Shown here in pieces: positions 6,099-42,006 of a stretch of DNA of 64,000 bases; position 1 is the first letter of the stretch, and each line of letters begins with the position of its first letter. The notes under the pieces are model-generated. The model worked only from the letters and a program-made list of their open reading frames with translations. It was not told the origin of the DNA and ran no database searches. Both the position numbers and the translations under genes were made by a program. The stretch spans positions 1 to 64,000 of the forward strand of contig OMXC01000011.1 of assembly GCA_900314925.1 (NCBI GenBank), in the 5' to 3' direction. This DNA is from an uncultured Bacteroidales bacterium. GTDB lineage: Bacteria > Bacteroidota > Bacteroidia > Bacteroidales > P3.

Positions 6099-8672
6099 TC
6101 AGCTGCATTTGCTCCATCCGCAGGTGGGGCAGCTCTTGCAGCCGCTGTTGTATACGAGTTTGCTGCCGCAGTCGGGGCACACCTCGTCGGTCTCCGTGCC
6201 GTCCTTGATGTAGCGCTTCAGGGCGCGTGCCACACCGTTGCTCCACGTGGTGATGCTGTCGGTGTCGAAGGTGAGCTTGCCGATGAGCTCCACGACGTTG
6301 GCTATGGGCATGCCGTGGCGCAGGATGCCGGAGATGAGCTTGGCGTAGTTCCAGTACTCCTTGCGGAACATGCGCGAGAGGCCCTCGATGGTGATGTGGT
6401 AGCCGTCCTGGTCGCAGAACTGGAAGTCGTAGCGCGCGTGCTCCTGCCCTTTCTCCTTGACGCGGATCACCCAGCCCTTATCCACATTCTTAGGCAGCAG
6501 GAAACTCTCGGCGCGGCCGGTGAAGATTTCGTAGGGGCGTCCTTCGTACATGCCCACCACGGCGACCCAGTCCTCCTTCTCGTTCTTGAAGCGCACCACC
6601 TCGGCCTCCAGTTTCTTGGGGCGCTTGGGGGCTTTGCTCTCGCCGAAGCAGGGGCTCTCCTTCTTGTTCTCGTTGTTGCTCACCAGCACGCCGGTGCGCG
6701 ACCCGTCGCGGTAGATGGTGCAGCCCTTGCAGCCGCTCTCCCACGCCGTCTCGTATATCTTGCTCACCACCTCCTTGGTGGTCTCCTTGGGTATGTTCAC
6801 CGTCACCGAGATGCTGTGGTCCACCCACTTCTGTATGGCGCCCTGCATCTTCACCTTGGCCACCCAGTCGATGTCGGCGCTCGTGGCGTGGTGGTAGGGG
6901 CTCTGCTCTATGAGCTTCTGCAGCGTGGCGTCGTCCATGCGCTTCACCTCCTCCACGTCGTAGCCGTTGACGCTGGCCCAGTCGAGGAACTTCGGGTGAA
7001 ACACATTGTACTCCTCGAAGTAGTCGCCGTTCTCGTCCTTGATGACGTTCTGCTTGCTGTTGTCCTTGTCGTTGGGGTTGATCTTCTTGCGGCGCTTGTA
7101 GCTGACGAGGAAGACCGGCTCTATGCCGCTGGTGGTCTGCGTGCAGATGCTCACGGTGCCCGTGGGGGCTATGGTGAGCAGCGCTATGTTGCGGCGGCCG
7201 TACTTGGTCATCTCCTCGTAGAGCTTCGGGTCGGCCTCGCGTATGCGGCTGATGAAGGGGTTGCTCTCCTCGCGCTTGGCGTTGTATATGGGGAAGGCGC
7301 CGCGCTCCTTGGCCATCTGGACGCTCGAGGCGTAGGCCGCGCAGCAGAGCGTCTGTTGCACGCGCACGGCGAAAGCCGTGGCCTCGTCGCTGCCGTACTG
7401 CAGCCCCAGGGCCGCCAGCATGTCGCCCTCGGCGGTGATGCCGAAACCCGAGCGGCGCCCTTCGAGGCACTTCATCTTGATGTTAAGCCACAGGTTGTGC
7501 TCCACCTGCTTGATCTCGTCGCTCTCCGGGTCGGCCTCTATCTTGCGCAGTATCTGCTCCACCTTCTCCAGCTCCAGGTCTATCAGGTCGTCCATCAGGC
7601 GCTGCCCCTTCATCACGTGCTCGCGGAAGAGGTCGAAGTTGAACGAAGCCTTCTTGGTGAATGGCTTGTCGACGTAGGAGTAGAGGTTGATGGCCTGCAG
7701 GCGGCAGCTGTCGTAGGGGCAGAGCGGTATCTCACCGCAGGGGTTGGTGCTCACCGTCCGGTAGCCGTAGTCGGCATAGCAGTCGGGCACGCTCTCGCGG
7801 AGTATGGTGTCCCAGAAGAGGACGCCGGGTTCGGCGCTCTGCCATGCGTTGGCTATTATCTTGTTCCACAGGGCGCGGGCGTCGATGGTCTTGGTGTATG
7901 TGGGGTTGGGCGAGTCGATGGGGTACTGCTGCACGAAGGGCTTGCCCTCCATGGCGCAGCGCATGAACTCGTCGGTCACCTTGACGCTCACGTTGGCGCC
8001 GGTCACCTTGCCCTGCTCCATCTTGGCGTCGATGAAGCTCTCCGAGTCTGGGTGCTTGATGCTGATGCTGAGCATCAGGGCGCCGCGGCGGCCGCCCTGC
8101 GCCACCTCGCGGGTGGTGTTGCTGTAGCGCTCCATGAAGGGCACGATGCCCGTCGACGTCAGCGCCGCGTTCTTCACGGGGCTGCCGCCGGGGCGTATGT
8201 GGCTCAGGTCGTGGCCCACGCCGCCGCGCCGCTTCATCAGCTGCACCTGCTCCTGGTCTATCTTCATGATGCCGCCGTAGCTGTCGCTGCAGCCCTGGTT
8301 GCCGATGACGAAGCAGTTGCTCAGGCTCACCACCTGGAAGTTGTTGCCGATGCCGCTCATCGGGCTTCCCTGCGGCACTATATATTTGAAATCCTTAAGT
8401 AAGTGGTATATCTCCTCCTCGCCCAGCGGGTTGGGATACTTGCTCTCTATGCGTGCATACTCGCGCGCCAGACGGCGGTGCATCATGTCGGGGTTCAGCT
8501 CGTAGATGCTGTCGTCGTTGCGCAGGGCGTATTTGTTCATCCACACGTTGGCGGCCAGCTCGTCGCCGTGAAAATACTCCACCGACGAACGCATGATCTC
8601 GTCCGGCGTATAGGTCTTCGTCTCTTTCTTTTTCTCTGTGGGTGCAATTCCCGAAAACAAGTCGCCCTGCAT
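6099..8672 (-). CDS. nrdJ: Adenosylcobalamin-dependent (class II) ribonucleotide reductase
   Basis: Reduces ribonucleotides to deoxyribonucleotides using a radical from vitamin B12 coenzyme, so it needs no oxygen. The 857-residue protein is full length. It carries LSNCF with the first redox cysteine, NPCGEIPL with the thiyl-radical cysteine, the IAPTGTVSI motif, and a C-terminal zinc-ribbon-like tail (CPDCG...CKSCPTCGWSKCS) seen in class II enzymes. It is a monocistronic minus-strand unit: a long leader upstream, and a terminator before uvrD. I saw no cobalamin riboswitch in the leader. Confidence 0.95.
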   Translation of the reverse strand: MQGDLFSGIAPTEKKKETKTYTPDEIMRSSVEYFHGDELAANVWMNKYALRNDDSIYELNPDMMHRRLAREYARIESKYPNPLGEEEIYHLLKDFKYIVPQGSPMSGIGNNFQVVSLSNCFVIGNQGCSDSYGGIMKIDQEQVQLMKRRGGVGHDLSHIRPGGSPVKNAALTSTGIVPFMERYSNTTREVAQGGRRGALMLSISIKHPDSESFIDAKMEQGKVTGANVSVKVTDEFMRCAMEGKPFVQQYPIDSPNPTYTKTIDARALWNKIIANAWQSAEPGVLFWDTILRESVPDCYADYGYRTVSTNPCGEIPLCPYDSCRLQAINLYSYVDKPFTKKASFNFDLFREHVMKGQRLMDDLIDLELEKVEQILRKIEADPESDEIKQVEHNLWLNIKMKCLEGRRSGFGITAEGDMLAALGLQYGSDEATAFAVRVQQTLCCAAYASSVQMAKERGAFPIYNAKREESNPFISRIREADPKLYEEMTKYGRRNIALLTIAPTGTVSICTQTTSGIEPVFLVSYKRRKKINPNDKDNSKQNVIKDENGDYFEEYNVFHPKFLDWASVNGYDVEEVKRMDDATLQKLIEQSPYHHATSADIDWVAKVKMQGAIQKWVDHSISVTVNIPKETTKEVVSKIYETAWESGCKGCTIYRDGSRTGVLVSNNENKKESPCFGESKAPKRPKKLEAEVVRFKNEKEDWVAVVGMYEGRPYEIFTGRAESFLLPKNVDKGWVIRVKEKGQEHARYDFQFCDQDGYHITIEGLSRMFRKEYWNYAKLISGILRHGMPIANVVELIGKLTFDTDSITTWSNGVARALKRYIKDGTETDEVCPDCGSKLVYNSGCKSCPTCGWSKCS

Positions 8673-8944: not shown

Positions 8945-9065
8945 TACGGACCCCCTTCGGCATTTCTACGGTATTTCTACGGTATTTCTACGCTTTTCCA
9001 CTGAAGAACTACCGTAGAACTGCCGTAAAGCGGCCGTTGGGGAGCCGGGGAAGGGCCGTATGGCA
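8945..9065. repeat. Palindromic array of eleven 11-bp units
   Basis: The sequence divides without a slip into eleven 11-mers: TACGGACCCCC, TTCGGCATTTC, TACGGTATTTC twice, TACGCTTTTCC, a central ACTGAAGAACT, then ACCGTAGAACT and four units starting GCCGT or GCCGG. The right half is roughly the inverted form of the left (TACGG against CCGTA). It fills part of the gap of about 500 bp between nrdJ and mrdA, which otherwise holds the nrdJ leader and no gene. The first 23 bases are identical to 35178-35200. Confidence 0.85.
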
Positions 9066-9181
9066 CAGCATGTTGCGTCGCCGGCGAGGGGTGGGGGAGC
9101 GGCCGCGTGGCGGCGGCCGAATATTTTTTGCCGCGCGGCACAATAAAAGCCGCACGGCGCCGTTTAAAACCGCAATAGACC

Positions 9182-11038
9182 ATGTCGGACAAGTATTCTG
9201 ATCGCAGCCGTGTGGTGAAGCTCATCTTCATCGTTGTGGGCGTCCTTTTTGTGGGGCGCCTGGCTATGCTGCAGATCTTCGACCCCACCTACCGCAGGCT
9301 CGCCGACCAGCAGGCGCTGAGGAACGTGACGCAGTATCCGGCGCGCGGTTTCATCTACGACCGCAAGGGGCGGCTGCTGGTGCACAACGAGGCGGTCTAC
9401 GACCTGATGGTGATACCCCGCATGGTCAAGGACCTCGACACGGCTTATTTCTGCCAGTGTCTCGGCATCACGCGCGACGACTTCGTGCAGCGCATGCAGA
9501 AGGCGCGCAAGTATTCGCCTTATTCGGCCTCGATCTTCATGAAGCAGATCTCCAAGGAGGAGTATGCCAAGTTTGAGAACAAGATGTTCCGCTTCAAGGG
9601 TTTCTACATCTCGCAGCGCACGCTGCGCATCTACGACCGCCCGATAGCGGCGCAGGTGCTGGGCTACGTGGGCGAGGTGGACCAGGGCGACCTGGACCGC
9701 GACCCCTACTACAAGCAGGGCGACTATATAGGCAAGAGCGGGCTGGAGAAGAGCTACGAGGATGTGCTGCGCGGCGTGAAGGGCAAGCGGGTGATGCATG
9801 TCGACGTGCACAACCGCGAGATAGGCCCCTATGCCGGCGGCGTCTACGACACGCTGCCCGTGGAGGGGTGGAACCTGTACACGTCGATAGACGCCGACCT
9901 GCAGCAGTATGCCGAGGAGCTGATGGCCAACAAGCGCGGCTGCGTGGTGGCCCTGGAGCCTTCGACGGGCGAGGTGCTGGCCATGGTCAGCGCCCCGTGC
10001 TACGACCCCAACCTGCTGGTGGGCCGCATACGCGGCGAGAACTACAAGAAGCTCAACGCCGACATCGCCAAGCCGATGCTCAACCGCGCCCTTATGGGGC
10101 AGTATCCGCCGGGCTCCATCTTCAAGGTGGCGCAGAGTATGGTGGCGCTCGACCTGGGTGTGATAACCCCCGGGAGCGGCTTCGTGTGCGACAAGAGCCT
10201 CGTGGGGTGCCACAACCACCCCTCGGCGCAGTCGGTGCAGGAGGCCATCAAGATGAGCTGCAACCCCTACTTCTACCAGGTCTACCGCCGCGTGATACAG
10301 CAGGGCAAGTACAAGAGCATATACAAGGACTCGCAGTACGGCCTTACGGTGTGGCGCGAGTACATGCTGCGCTTCGGCTTCGGGCAGAAGCTGCCCATAG
10401 ACCTGCCGCTGAACGGGGTGCAGAAAGGCAACATACCTGACACGGCCTACTACAACCGCTGGTACGGCAGGGAGCGGTGGGCCTTCTCGACGATATACAG
10501 CAACTCCATAGGTCAGGGCGAGGTCACCGTGGTGCCGATACAGATGGCCAACCTGGCGGCCATCGTGGCCAACCGGGGCTACTACATCACGCCGCATGTG
10601 GTGCGCTTCTACGGACCCGACTCGCTGCGGCGCGAGGAGTACAACGAACGGCACGAGACGGGCATCAAGCGCGAGTATTTCGACATAGCAGCCGCGGGCA
10701 TGTACGACGTGGTGCATGTGGCCGGCGGCACGGCGCGCCGGGCGCGCGTCGACGGGCTCGACGTGTGCGGCAAGACGGGTACGGCGGAGAACTACGGCAA
10801 CGACCACTCGGTGTTCATCTGCTTCGCGCCCAAGAACGACCCGAAGATAGCCCTGGCCGTGTATGTGGAGAACGCGCAGGGCGGCGGCGGCACCTGGGCG
10901 GCGCCCATCGCAGGCCTGCTGGTGGAGAAGTATCTCAACGGCGAGGTGAAGCGCAAGGACGTGGAGAAGATGTACCGCGAGGCAGAGCCCTGCCAGAAGC
11001 TGCCGTTGACAAGAAGGGTGAAGAAGAAAAAGAAGTGA
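9182..11038 (+). CDS. mrdA: Penicillin-binding protein 2 (elongasome transpeptidase)
   Basis: Cross-links peptidoglycan during cell elongation with RodA. The 618-residue protein has one N-terminal membrane anchor (VVKLIFIVVGVLFVGRLAML), the PBP dimerisation region (ARGFIYDRKGRLL), then the transpeptidase domain. The domain carries the SxxK serine in PPGSIFKV, an SxN as MSCNPYF and KTGTA near the C-terminus. A basic tail (RRVKKKKK) ends the protein. Only 3 bp separate it from rodA. The mreBCD genes, often upstream in Bacteroidota, are not adjacent here. Confidence 0.95.
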   Translation: MSDKYSDRSRVVKLIFIVVGVLFVGRLAMLQIFDPTYRRLADQQALRNVTQYPARGFIYDRKGRLLVHNEAVYDLMVIPRMVKDLDTAYFCQCLGITRDDFVQRMQKARKYSPYSASIFMKQISKEEYAKFENKMFRFKGFYISQRTLRIYDRPIAAQVLGYVGEVDQGDLDRDPYYKQGDYIGKSGLEKSYEDVLRGVKGKRVMHVDVHNREIGPYAGGVYDTLPVEGWNLYTSIDADLQQYAEELMANKRGCVVALEPSTGEVLAMVSAPCYDPNLLVGRIRGENYKKLNADIAKPMLNRALMGQYPPGSIFKVAQSMVALDLGVITPGSGFVCDKSLVGCHNHPSAQSVQEAIKMSCNPYFYQVYRRVIQQGKYKSIYKDSQYGLTVWREYMLRFGFGQKLPIDLPLNGVQKGNIPDTAYYNRWYGRERWAFSTIYSNSIGQGEVTVVPIQMANLAAIVANRGYYITPHVVRFYGPDSLRREEYNERHETGIKREYFDIAAAGMYDVVHVAGGTARRARVDGLDVCGKTGTAENYGNDHSVFICFAPKNDPKIALAVYVENAQGGGGTWAAPIAGLLVEKYLNGEVKRKDVEKMYREAEPCQKLPLTRRVKKKKK

Positions 11039-20822: not shown

Positions 20823-20912
20823 TTTCGACAATACATCAACGATACTTCAACAATAGTTTTACGATAGCTATCGTTGAAATATCGTTGAAGTATCGTTGAA
20901 GTATCGTTGAAA
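20823..20912. repeat. Near-perfect palindrome of eight 11-bp units
   Basis: Four units on the right arm, TATCGTTGAAA, TATCGTTGAAG, TATCGTTGAAG and TATCGTTGAAA (20869-20912), face four diverged inverted units on the left arm (20823-20866). A 2-bp gap lies in the palindromic centre GATAGCTATC. The right arm is nearly uniform while the left is mutated. It lies in the gap of about 450 bp between the TPR lipoprotein and the T9SS cargo gene, which otherwise holds only the latter's promoter and leader. Confidence 0.88.
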
Positions 20913-21039
20913 TGAGCATTGATAGACGGCTGGAAAGTCATGCAATAAACCGTCTGGTTCGGGTACTAAACCTTCAGGACAGCCACCGGAGCGGAAGGCC
21001 TCGCGCCGGCGGCGGAAATCAAAAAAAAACATAAAATAG

Positions 21040-23994: not shown

Positions 23995-24021
23995 GTGTTG
24001 TTTAGCGGAGGGAAAAGAAAA

Positions 24022-24124
24022 GGAGTTAAGAAGTTAAGAAGTTAAGAAGTTAAGAAGTTAAGACAATACCGCGTCCTGCACATTTGTCTTAACTCCTTAA
24101 CTCCTTAACTTCTTAACTCCTTAA
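24022..24124. repeat. 8-bp GTTAAGAA repeats facing TTAACTCC repeats
   Basis: Left arm: about 4.8 copies of GTTAAGAA (24025-24062). Right arm: TTAACTCC, TTAACTCC, TTAACTTC and TTAACTCC (about 24089-24124). GACAA/TTGTC closes a 17-nt loop. The arms can pair over about 40 bp. It lies between convergent genes, reaching almost to the yicC stop. Confidence 0.85.
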
Positions 24125-29779: not shown

Positions 29780-29900
29780 TGTGTTGTGTTAGATGTTTGT
29801 TGTGTCAAAAACGGAGGAAAACGTAAATTATTATGTCTGAGGGCAAAAAACACCCTCGATTTTCGCCGGCCCTTGTCCTGCCTGCATTTGTAGCAAGCCC

Positions 29901-30010
29901 CTTCGGCCCCCCTTCGGCCCCTCTTCGGCCTTCCTTCGGCCATGCATCGGCCCGCCGTGGACGGGATGCGGTAGAACGGCCGTCGAGAGGCCGTTGCGGG
30001 GCCGTGGCGA
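29901..30010. repeat. Palindromic array of ten 11-bp units
   Basis: Ten 11-mers in strict register: CTTCGGCCCCC, CTTCGGCCCCT, CTTCGGCCTTC, CTTCGGCCATG, CATCGGCCCGC, two diverged central units, then the inverted-type GGCCGTCGAGA, GGCCGTTGCGG and GGCCGTGGCGA. It lies between the rlmD start and the rpmH terminator. Apart from the rlmD leader, no gene is seen between 29780 and 30037. Confidence 0.86.
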
Positions 30011-35089: not shown

Positions 35090-35166
35090 TGTCTTTTCTT
35101 TCACAATTTATAACATATTTATGTTAAAAATGCTTAATCTCAGACACGACGTTTCTATAGAGCCGG

Positions 35167-35254
35167 TACGGACCCCCTACGGACCCCCTTCGGCATTTCT
35201 TCAGTGGAACGCCGTAGAAGGGCCGAAGAAAGGTCGAGGAGGGGCCGAAGGGAC
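35167..35254. repeat. Palindromic array of eight 11-bp units
   Basis: Eight 11-mers in register: TACGGACCCCC twice, TTCGGCATTTC, the centre TTCAGTGGAAC, then GCCGTAGAAGG, GCCGAAGAAAG, GTCGAGGAGGG and GCCGAAGGGAC, which are inverted forms of the left units. Bases 35178-35200 are identical to 8945-8967. The centre word TTCAGTGGAA occurs inverted in the array at 8945-9065. Confidence 0.88.
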
Positions 35255-41675: not shown

Positions 41676-41940
41676 TGTATTATTTGTATTTATTAATTAA
41701 TTGTTCTTTTTATTACAGCGTGCAAAGATACAACTTTTTCCCGAAACAGCAGACAAAAAAGTGCCAACAGAAAGAAAAAATATTGCTGTGCAGATTATTC
41801 TCGGGTTGCTGAGGGACGGTCGGTCGCTGCAGGTCGACGGTAAGGGAAATGGCGCCGAATTATTTTAACATTTGCCCAACGAGTCTAGTTAACATAACCA
41901 GAAAAACGGGCTTTGTAAATCAGTCTGTTAAGGCATCATC

Positions 41941-42006
41941 TCTTTATTTGCTCTTTAATTACTCCTTAATTGCTCTTTATAAAGACTTAATTTAGTAAGA
42001 GATAGG
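41941..42006. repeat. Degenerate 11-bp array
   Basis: TCTTTATTTGC, TCTTTAATTAC, TCCTTAATTGC and TCTTTATAAAG are four consecutive 11-mers ending in the palindromic centre CTTTATAAAG. About two further units to the right only loosely resemble the inverted left arm. It shows the same register as the clearer arrays but weaker symmetry. Confidence 0.55.

Follow-up and report, generated by a model that had tools for sequence, protein, structure and literature searches.

Arrays of 11-bp units in the window

Between the divergent genes for a ribonucleotide reductase large chain (nrd) and a penicillin-binding protein 2-like transpeptidase (PBP2) lies an array whose left arm consists of TACGGTATTTC-type units and whose right arm reads ACTGAAGAACT / ACCGTAGAACT / GCCGTAAAGCG. 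It is one of four such arrays (Table 1) in the window, i.e. the whole 64-kb stretch analysed, which corresponds to positions 1-64000 of contig C18 in the 2.416-Mb genome of the host, an uncultured rumen-type member of the Bacteroidales. As the earlier note had described, the four main loci keep an 11-bp register with direct units on one arm and inverted units on the other. In the gap between the first array and PBP2, a conserved block is a probable promoter.

Table 1. Coordinates of the arrays and neighbouring features in the window (z, RNA folding z-score against 200 shuffles)
Feature	Position	Strand	Remarks
Ribonucleotide reductase large chain	6099..8672	-	Pfam PF02867, 1.4e-89; flank used for finding orthologous loci
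11-bp-unit inverted array	8945..9060	.	In the gap separating nrd (RNR) from PBP2, which diverge; z -4.5
Conserved TTTTTTG...CACAATAAAA block (putative promoter)	9124..9148	+	In the gap from array to PBP2 start; kept in relatives while array words change
Penicillin-binding protein 2-like transpeptidase	9182..11038	+	Pfam PF00905, 7.9e-54, and PF03717; flanking gene
11-bp-unit inverted array, ATCGTTGAAGT words	20823..20913	.	Near-perfect palindrome; z -9.9; kept in G008
11-bp-unit array, CTTCGGCCCCC words	29898..30010	.	Gap between rlmD-like gene and rpmH, co-directional; z -2.2
rpmH, 48 aa	30103..30249	-	ORF translation; found with looser gene calls, missed at first
11-bp-unit inverted array, TACGGACCCCC words	35160..35254	.	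About 125 bp upstream of a gpsA-like gene; z -2.9

The array at 29898 is in register, with weak palindromy as measured by its fold, but its setting is not divergent: with the recovery of the short downstream ORF, which we take to be rpmH from its L34-like sequence, the array counts as co-directional. A fifth place once proposed as a weaker member (41940-41979) does not belong to the family, because it consists of A+T-rich 11-bp units in direct repeat (TRF score 59) and forms no hairpin (z +0.4). The window also holds an inverted array of 8-bp units at 24020-24124 (AAGAAGTT / CTTAACTC), a strong hairpin with the purine arm first (z -8.8) that sits in a convergent-gene gap and resembles a terminator. 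Known structured RNAs were ruled out, since no Rfam model matched the window at gathering scores.

Genome-wide excess

All genome counts come from 861 of 2416 kb (36% of the genome). Autocorrelation of the intergenic sequence in these 861 kb is raised at lags 7, 8, 11, 14 and 22 and not at lag 10; plain helical phasing at 10.5 bp was ruled out because steps of 10 and 21 bp are absent, 21 appearing solely as a harmonic of 7. Period-11 intergenic segments number 101 against 0.2 expected from first-order Markov simulations of the same intergenic sequences (regions of at most 800 bp), and coding sequence holds seven. The intergenic excess at 11 bp that the earlier note had proposed to look for is thus strong, and the family extends through the genome, but 11 bp is not the sole period: there are also 48 period-7 and 12 period-8 segments (none expected of either), in other gene contexts. 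Successive unit cores are spaced by 11 bp in 190 cases, by 10 bp in one and by 12 bp in three. Altogether, 56 of the 276 intergenic regions sampled hold a period-11 array, from which we extrapolate a total of about 157 such regions per genome; the elements are roughly 90-180 bp long.

Placement upstream of promoters

Period-11 arrays in this genome occupy 30/45 divergent, 20/189 co-directional and 6/42 convergent regions. The same ranking is found in two further species, with 10/19, 9/72 and 1/19 in G061 and 7/14, 5/37 and 1/10 in G012; pooled over the three, the figures are 47/78, 34/298 and 8/71 (divergent versus convergent, P ~3e-10). The divergent bias holds after stratification by region length as well as with looser gene calls. 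The median distance from an array to the start codon is 120 bp, and the Bacteroidales -7 box TANNTTTG, the motif on which our promoter calls are based, occurs 45 times in the gap between array and start and twice within arrays, which places the arrays upstream of promoters rather than in leaders. Neither this promoter-upstream, mostly divergent placement nor the pyrimidine-to-purine polarity described below was foreseen in the earlier note.

Symmetry, polarity and composition

Palindromy, albeit imperfect, is seen in 86% of the period-11 arrays. On either strand, the pyrimidine-rich arm comes first in 43 of 44 palindromes here, in 14/14 in G061, in 8/8 in species with unrelated words and in 6/8 in a small G012 sample. 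Elements within one genome are related, so that only the count across species (P 0.008) comes close to independence. Polarity does not depend on gene orientation, and 15 of 16 co-directional arrays share it, which rules out a gene-strand purine bias as its cause.

In this genome, pairing between the two arms of an element is no better than between arms taken from different elements (25 elements), and the unit, rather than the base pair, therefore looks to be the conserved object; beyond 34 bp, pairing drops to ~0.55-0.6. Some elements carry different words on their two arms (L158, L103). The arms of G012 elements, by contrast with those here, do covary (P 0.01 and 0.04; 24 elements), the flips lying at pairs 26, 37 and 41, which may mean either that pairing is important in certain lineages or that entire palindromes were recently copied in that one. 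Selection for an RNA hairpin was rejected: on the sense strand of co-directional arrays, G.T mismatches (23) do not outnumber A.C mismatches (29), giving no sign of tolerance for RNA wobble pairs.

On both strands, the sequence read towards the centre is rich in C and poor in G along the outer arms and turns T-rich near the A+T-rich centre, a pattern shared by two families of unrelated words. At 61-80 bp from the centre, C reaches ~0.50 and G ~0.14 on both strands in these two families, and C exceeds G on both flanks in 27 of 31 elements, as compared with 13% of control points. Such C-rich entry would fit a two-way insulator of the Rho type, yet it is part of the same polarity and by itself no proof.

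A vocabulary for each species

Most unit words are particular to a species, and many are spread over its whole genome. For the core ACTGAAGAACTACTGAAGAAC, the count is 204 here, 297 in G061, 37 in G069 (same contig as G008) and three in G063, with none in six other relatives searched. Three other words are each absent from the other genomes searched: ACGGTAGTATT doublets (177 in G012), ACAACRATAG (102 in G064) and GGACAACRACT (379 in G092). A genome-wide word is not universal among species, as the L034 word is confined to a single locus in its own genome. From the centre outward, the order in the genome studied here is CTGAAGAACTA twice, CTGAAGAA(ATG or CGG), CCGTAGGGACT or CCGTACCGGGT, and then G-richer units. 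The view that each locus has its own word was thus half right, but a common, position-ordered vocabulary recurs at about 100 places in the genome. Elements of G012 share one palindrome of ~110 bp with symmetric variants at several loci; outer ends vary in the genome studied here. At many loci of G092, the genome of L061, the unit variants are arranged symmetrically, each arm having an A-variant close to the centre and a G-variant farther out. A plasmid or phage origin was ruled out, the core element having no match in plasmid and phage collections.

Evolution in place

The nearest named relatives of the host are uncultured Bacteroidales from ruminants, and we know of no isolate in the group. 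The genomes compared are metagenome-assembled, with gene calls made for this analysis. Period-11 arrays are present in numerous independent genomes from the genus and were found in 0/85 intergenic regions in a small sample from other Bacteroidales families. The nrd-PBP2 neighbours are common to six genomes (this one, L009, L010, L011, L074 and L030), and in five of the six the gap holds an inverted 11-bp array with different words; orthologues of the 8945 array with other words are those of L009, L010, L011 and L074. This same-place argument covers the loci at which the nrd-PBP2 pair is kept, other neighbours in the 80-species comparison having been left out.

G008, a close relative, retains the arrays at 8945, 20823 and 35167 and lacks four units (44 bp) of the one at 29901. 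The L092 array differs by one unit (11 bp), and the L103 array is in the same register as in G061, with one of its arms carrying replaced words. Relatives accordingly keep the register at corresponding loci, as expected by the earlier note, and free drift does not fit the evolution of the arrays. Of the two origins that note had offered, a protein binding one face of the DNA or a repeat-generating process with 11-bp steps, both agree with the genome-wide excess and the retained register, and each has its own support: the strict step of 11 bp, the fixed polarity and, in this genome, unit variation that does not follow pairing favour the binder, and the gain and loss of whole units together with genome-wide species-specific words favour the repeat process.

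Regarding mobility, two pairwise comparisons yielded no clean empty site, and no target-site duplication was visible by eye in the G012 flanks. A search that covered Y1 transposases found no RAYT (PF01797) in the array-rich genomes G008 (88% complete) and G019 (81% complete) and one such protein in G000. Contigs C8, C10, C12, C18 and C21 of G061 end in or near 11-bp palindromes, for which reason these palindromes probably break assemblies.

Interpretation

All these arrays belong to a single class of structural DNA element. Its members are palindromes made of 11-bp units, both direct and inverted, that lie scattered upstream of promoters at about 150 places per genome across one genus of rumen and gut Bacteroidales. 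The class is marked by its period, symmetry, polarity, position and clade range, by species-specific words and by the replacement of words in register. Our preferred explanation, to which we assign a probability of roughly 0.35, is a phased DNA-binding array that would insulate promoters and evolve concertedly; binding, insulation and co-evolution are what we infer from the sequences. The arrays would work at the DNA level, in phase with one unit per helical turn, and all units could possibly be bound on one helical face. A putative DNA-binding protein would assemble from the central dyad outward, walling off the divergent promoters from each other through insulation or a supercoil boundary. 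Unit slippage and conversion between arrays would keep words alike within a genome, and words would drift between species together with the putative binder. Mirror symmetry combined with a fixed polarity would not be accounted for by a general binder of the HU type. Against a phased array, for words to change at ~100 sites, the binder would have to co-evolve or be indifferent to most bases, and the arm covariation in G012 suits pairing or the copying of whole elements.

The arrays could instead be selfish or neutral MITE-like palindromes that spread and homogenise in each genome, with units growing by slippage and placement reflecting target preference or tolerance. The genome-wide species-specific words counted above, the ~110-bp palindrome shared among G012 elements with its symmetric variants and the gain and loss of whole units all speak for this origin. 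However, the arrays avoid convergent regions, where tolerated inserts usually find refuge, and most of them stay at orthologous loci while their words change. The polarity is fixed across unrelated words, the two pairwise comparisons lack a clean empty site and RAYT is absent from two array-rich, if incomplete, genomes. A selfish origin is somewhat unlikely, yet together with the Rho-type insulator it is a serious contender against the phased array.

A two-way transcription insulator of the Rho type is a further candidate. A polymerase entering an array would make C-rich, G-poor RNA on either strand, and Rho could load on it and stop stray transcription before the other promoter. Rho loading takes place on C-rich, G-poor RNA upstream of the release point; the inward composition of the two families and the excess of C over G on both entry strands in 27/31 elements are those expected of Rho terminators, and so degenerate a requirement would explain the free choice of words. 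Such a role is nevertheless improbable, as arrays are rare in convergent regions, a strict 11-bp register and palindromy would be unneeded, structure would hinder loading and the G012 core units are without YC dinucleotides; the literature searches returned no direct support for it. Quite improbable is a supercoil buffer in which the palindromes would extrude as cruciforms under negative supercoiling between divergent promoters. It would suit the palindromy, the A+T-rich centre, the divergent placement and the arm covariation in G012, yet it requires neither polarity nor tandem units, and it sits badly with the lack of arm covariation and the falling pairing beyond 34 bp in this genome, as well as with the unlike arms of L158 and L103.

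Relation to known systems

Like the arrays, REP/BIME elements (GTAG and CGTC superfamilies, RAYT) are dispersed intergenic palindromes of species-specific sequence with some 100 or more copies per genome. REPs are 20-40 bp long (PMC3733652), have tags at their termini and as a rule are associated with 3′ ends and RAYT, whereas the arrays consist of 11-bp units, lie at 5′ ends and are present where no RAYT was found. Membership was rejected on length (~90-180 versus 20-40 bp) and for want of correlation with PF01797 in the genomes searched. The BrickBuilt MITE of Porphyromonas gingivalis, likewise a member of the Bacteroidales, is intergenic and combines tandem units with inverted repeats (PMC4596501). 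It has 23-bp direct units, small inverted ends and 19 copies, as opposed to 11-bp units in both palindrome arms; with this difference in unit, and with leader and tail absent, the arrays do not belong to it. Type II plasmid centromeres (ParR/parC) resemble the arrays in that they have series of direct repeats that flank a promoter or lie upstream of it, and ParR of R1 uses 11-bp repeats (PMC9426499). These centromeres have direct repeats only, at one site per plasmid, whereas the present arrays are inverted, vary in their words and number about 150 on the chromosome, too many for parM/parR linkage to be expected at each. Bidirectional terminators, whether intrinsic or Rho-dependent, share the palindromy and the C-rich entry on both strands; they follow genes, whereas the arrays lie upstream of promoters with a polarity opposite to that of the local terminator-like 7/8-bp hairpins.

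Literature searches, which covered open-access work and few subscription papers, returned no description of 11-bp palindrome arrays, and no described family matched; the novelty of the arrays is provisional. We think it unlikely that they represent an undescribed architecture in the full sense, namely genus-wide, polarity-fixed palindromic arrays with one-turn steps that would insulate divergent promoters via a co-evolving putative binder, ~100 sites changing word together with their geometry conserved. If true, this would be an example, in bacteria, of binding sites that drift in concert. Should the arrays act on promoters, conserved geometry with free sequence would be unusual among bacterial control elements and invisible to motif searches. 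The arrays offer a test bed for concerted change at ~100 sites and for the need to insulate divergent bacterial promoters, and even if selfish they would be an abundant repeat class that probably disrupts metagenome assembly.

Other short-period arrays

Period-7 and period-8 arrays lie close to stop codons in short co-directional gaps and are mostly non-palindromic; those that are palindromic usually have the purine-rich arm first (8/9 here). Arrays of 7-bp units fill short co-directional gaps right after stop codons at L091:9109-9187, L097:1279-1365, L124:8875-8970 and L125:14443-14530, the last two being kept in G061 with changed copy number. A 7-bp unit (CCTTTCA/CCTCTCA) is repeated at least 36 times upstream of nrd at L016:1-260, in a run that reaches the contig end. 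Period-9 tandem arrays (e.g. ACTATAGGA) occur at L131, L135, L144 and L148 and are intergenic in G012, G023 and G035. Finally, G000:C8:9891-10157 holds a second 11-bp family (ACGGCTACTAA) of direct units, listed on one strand only.
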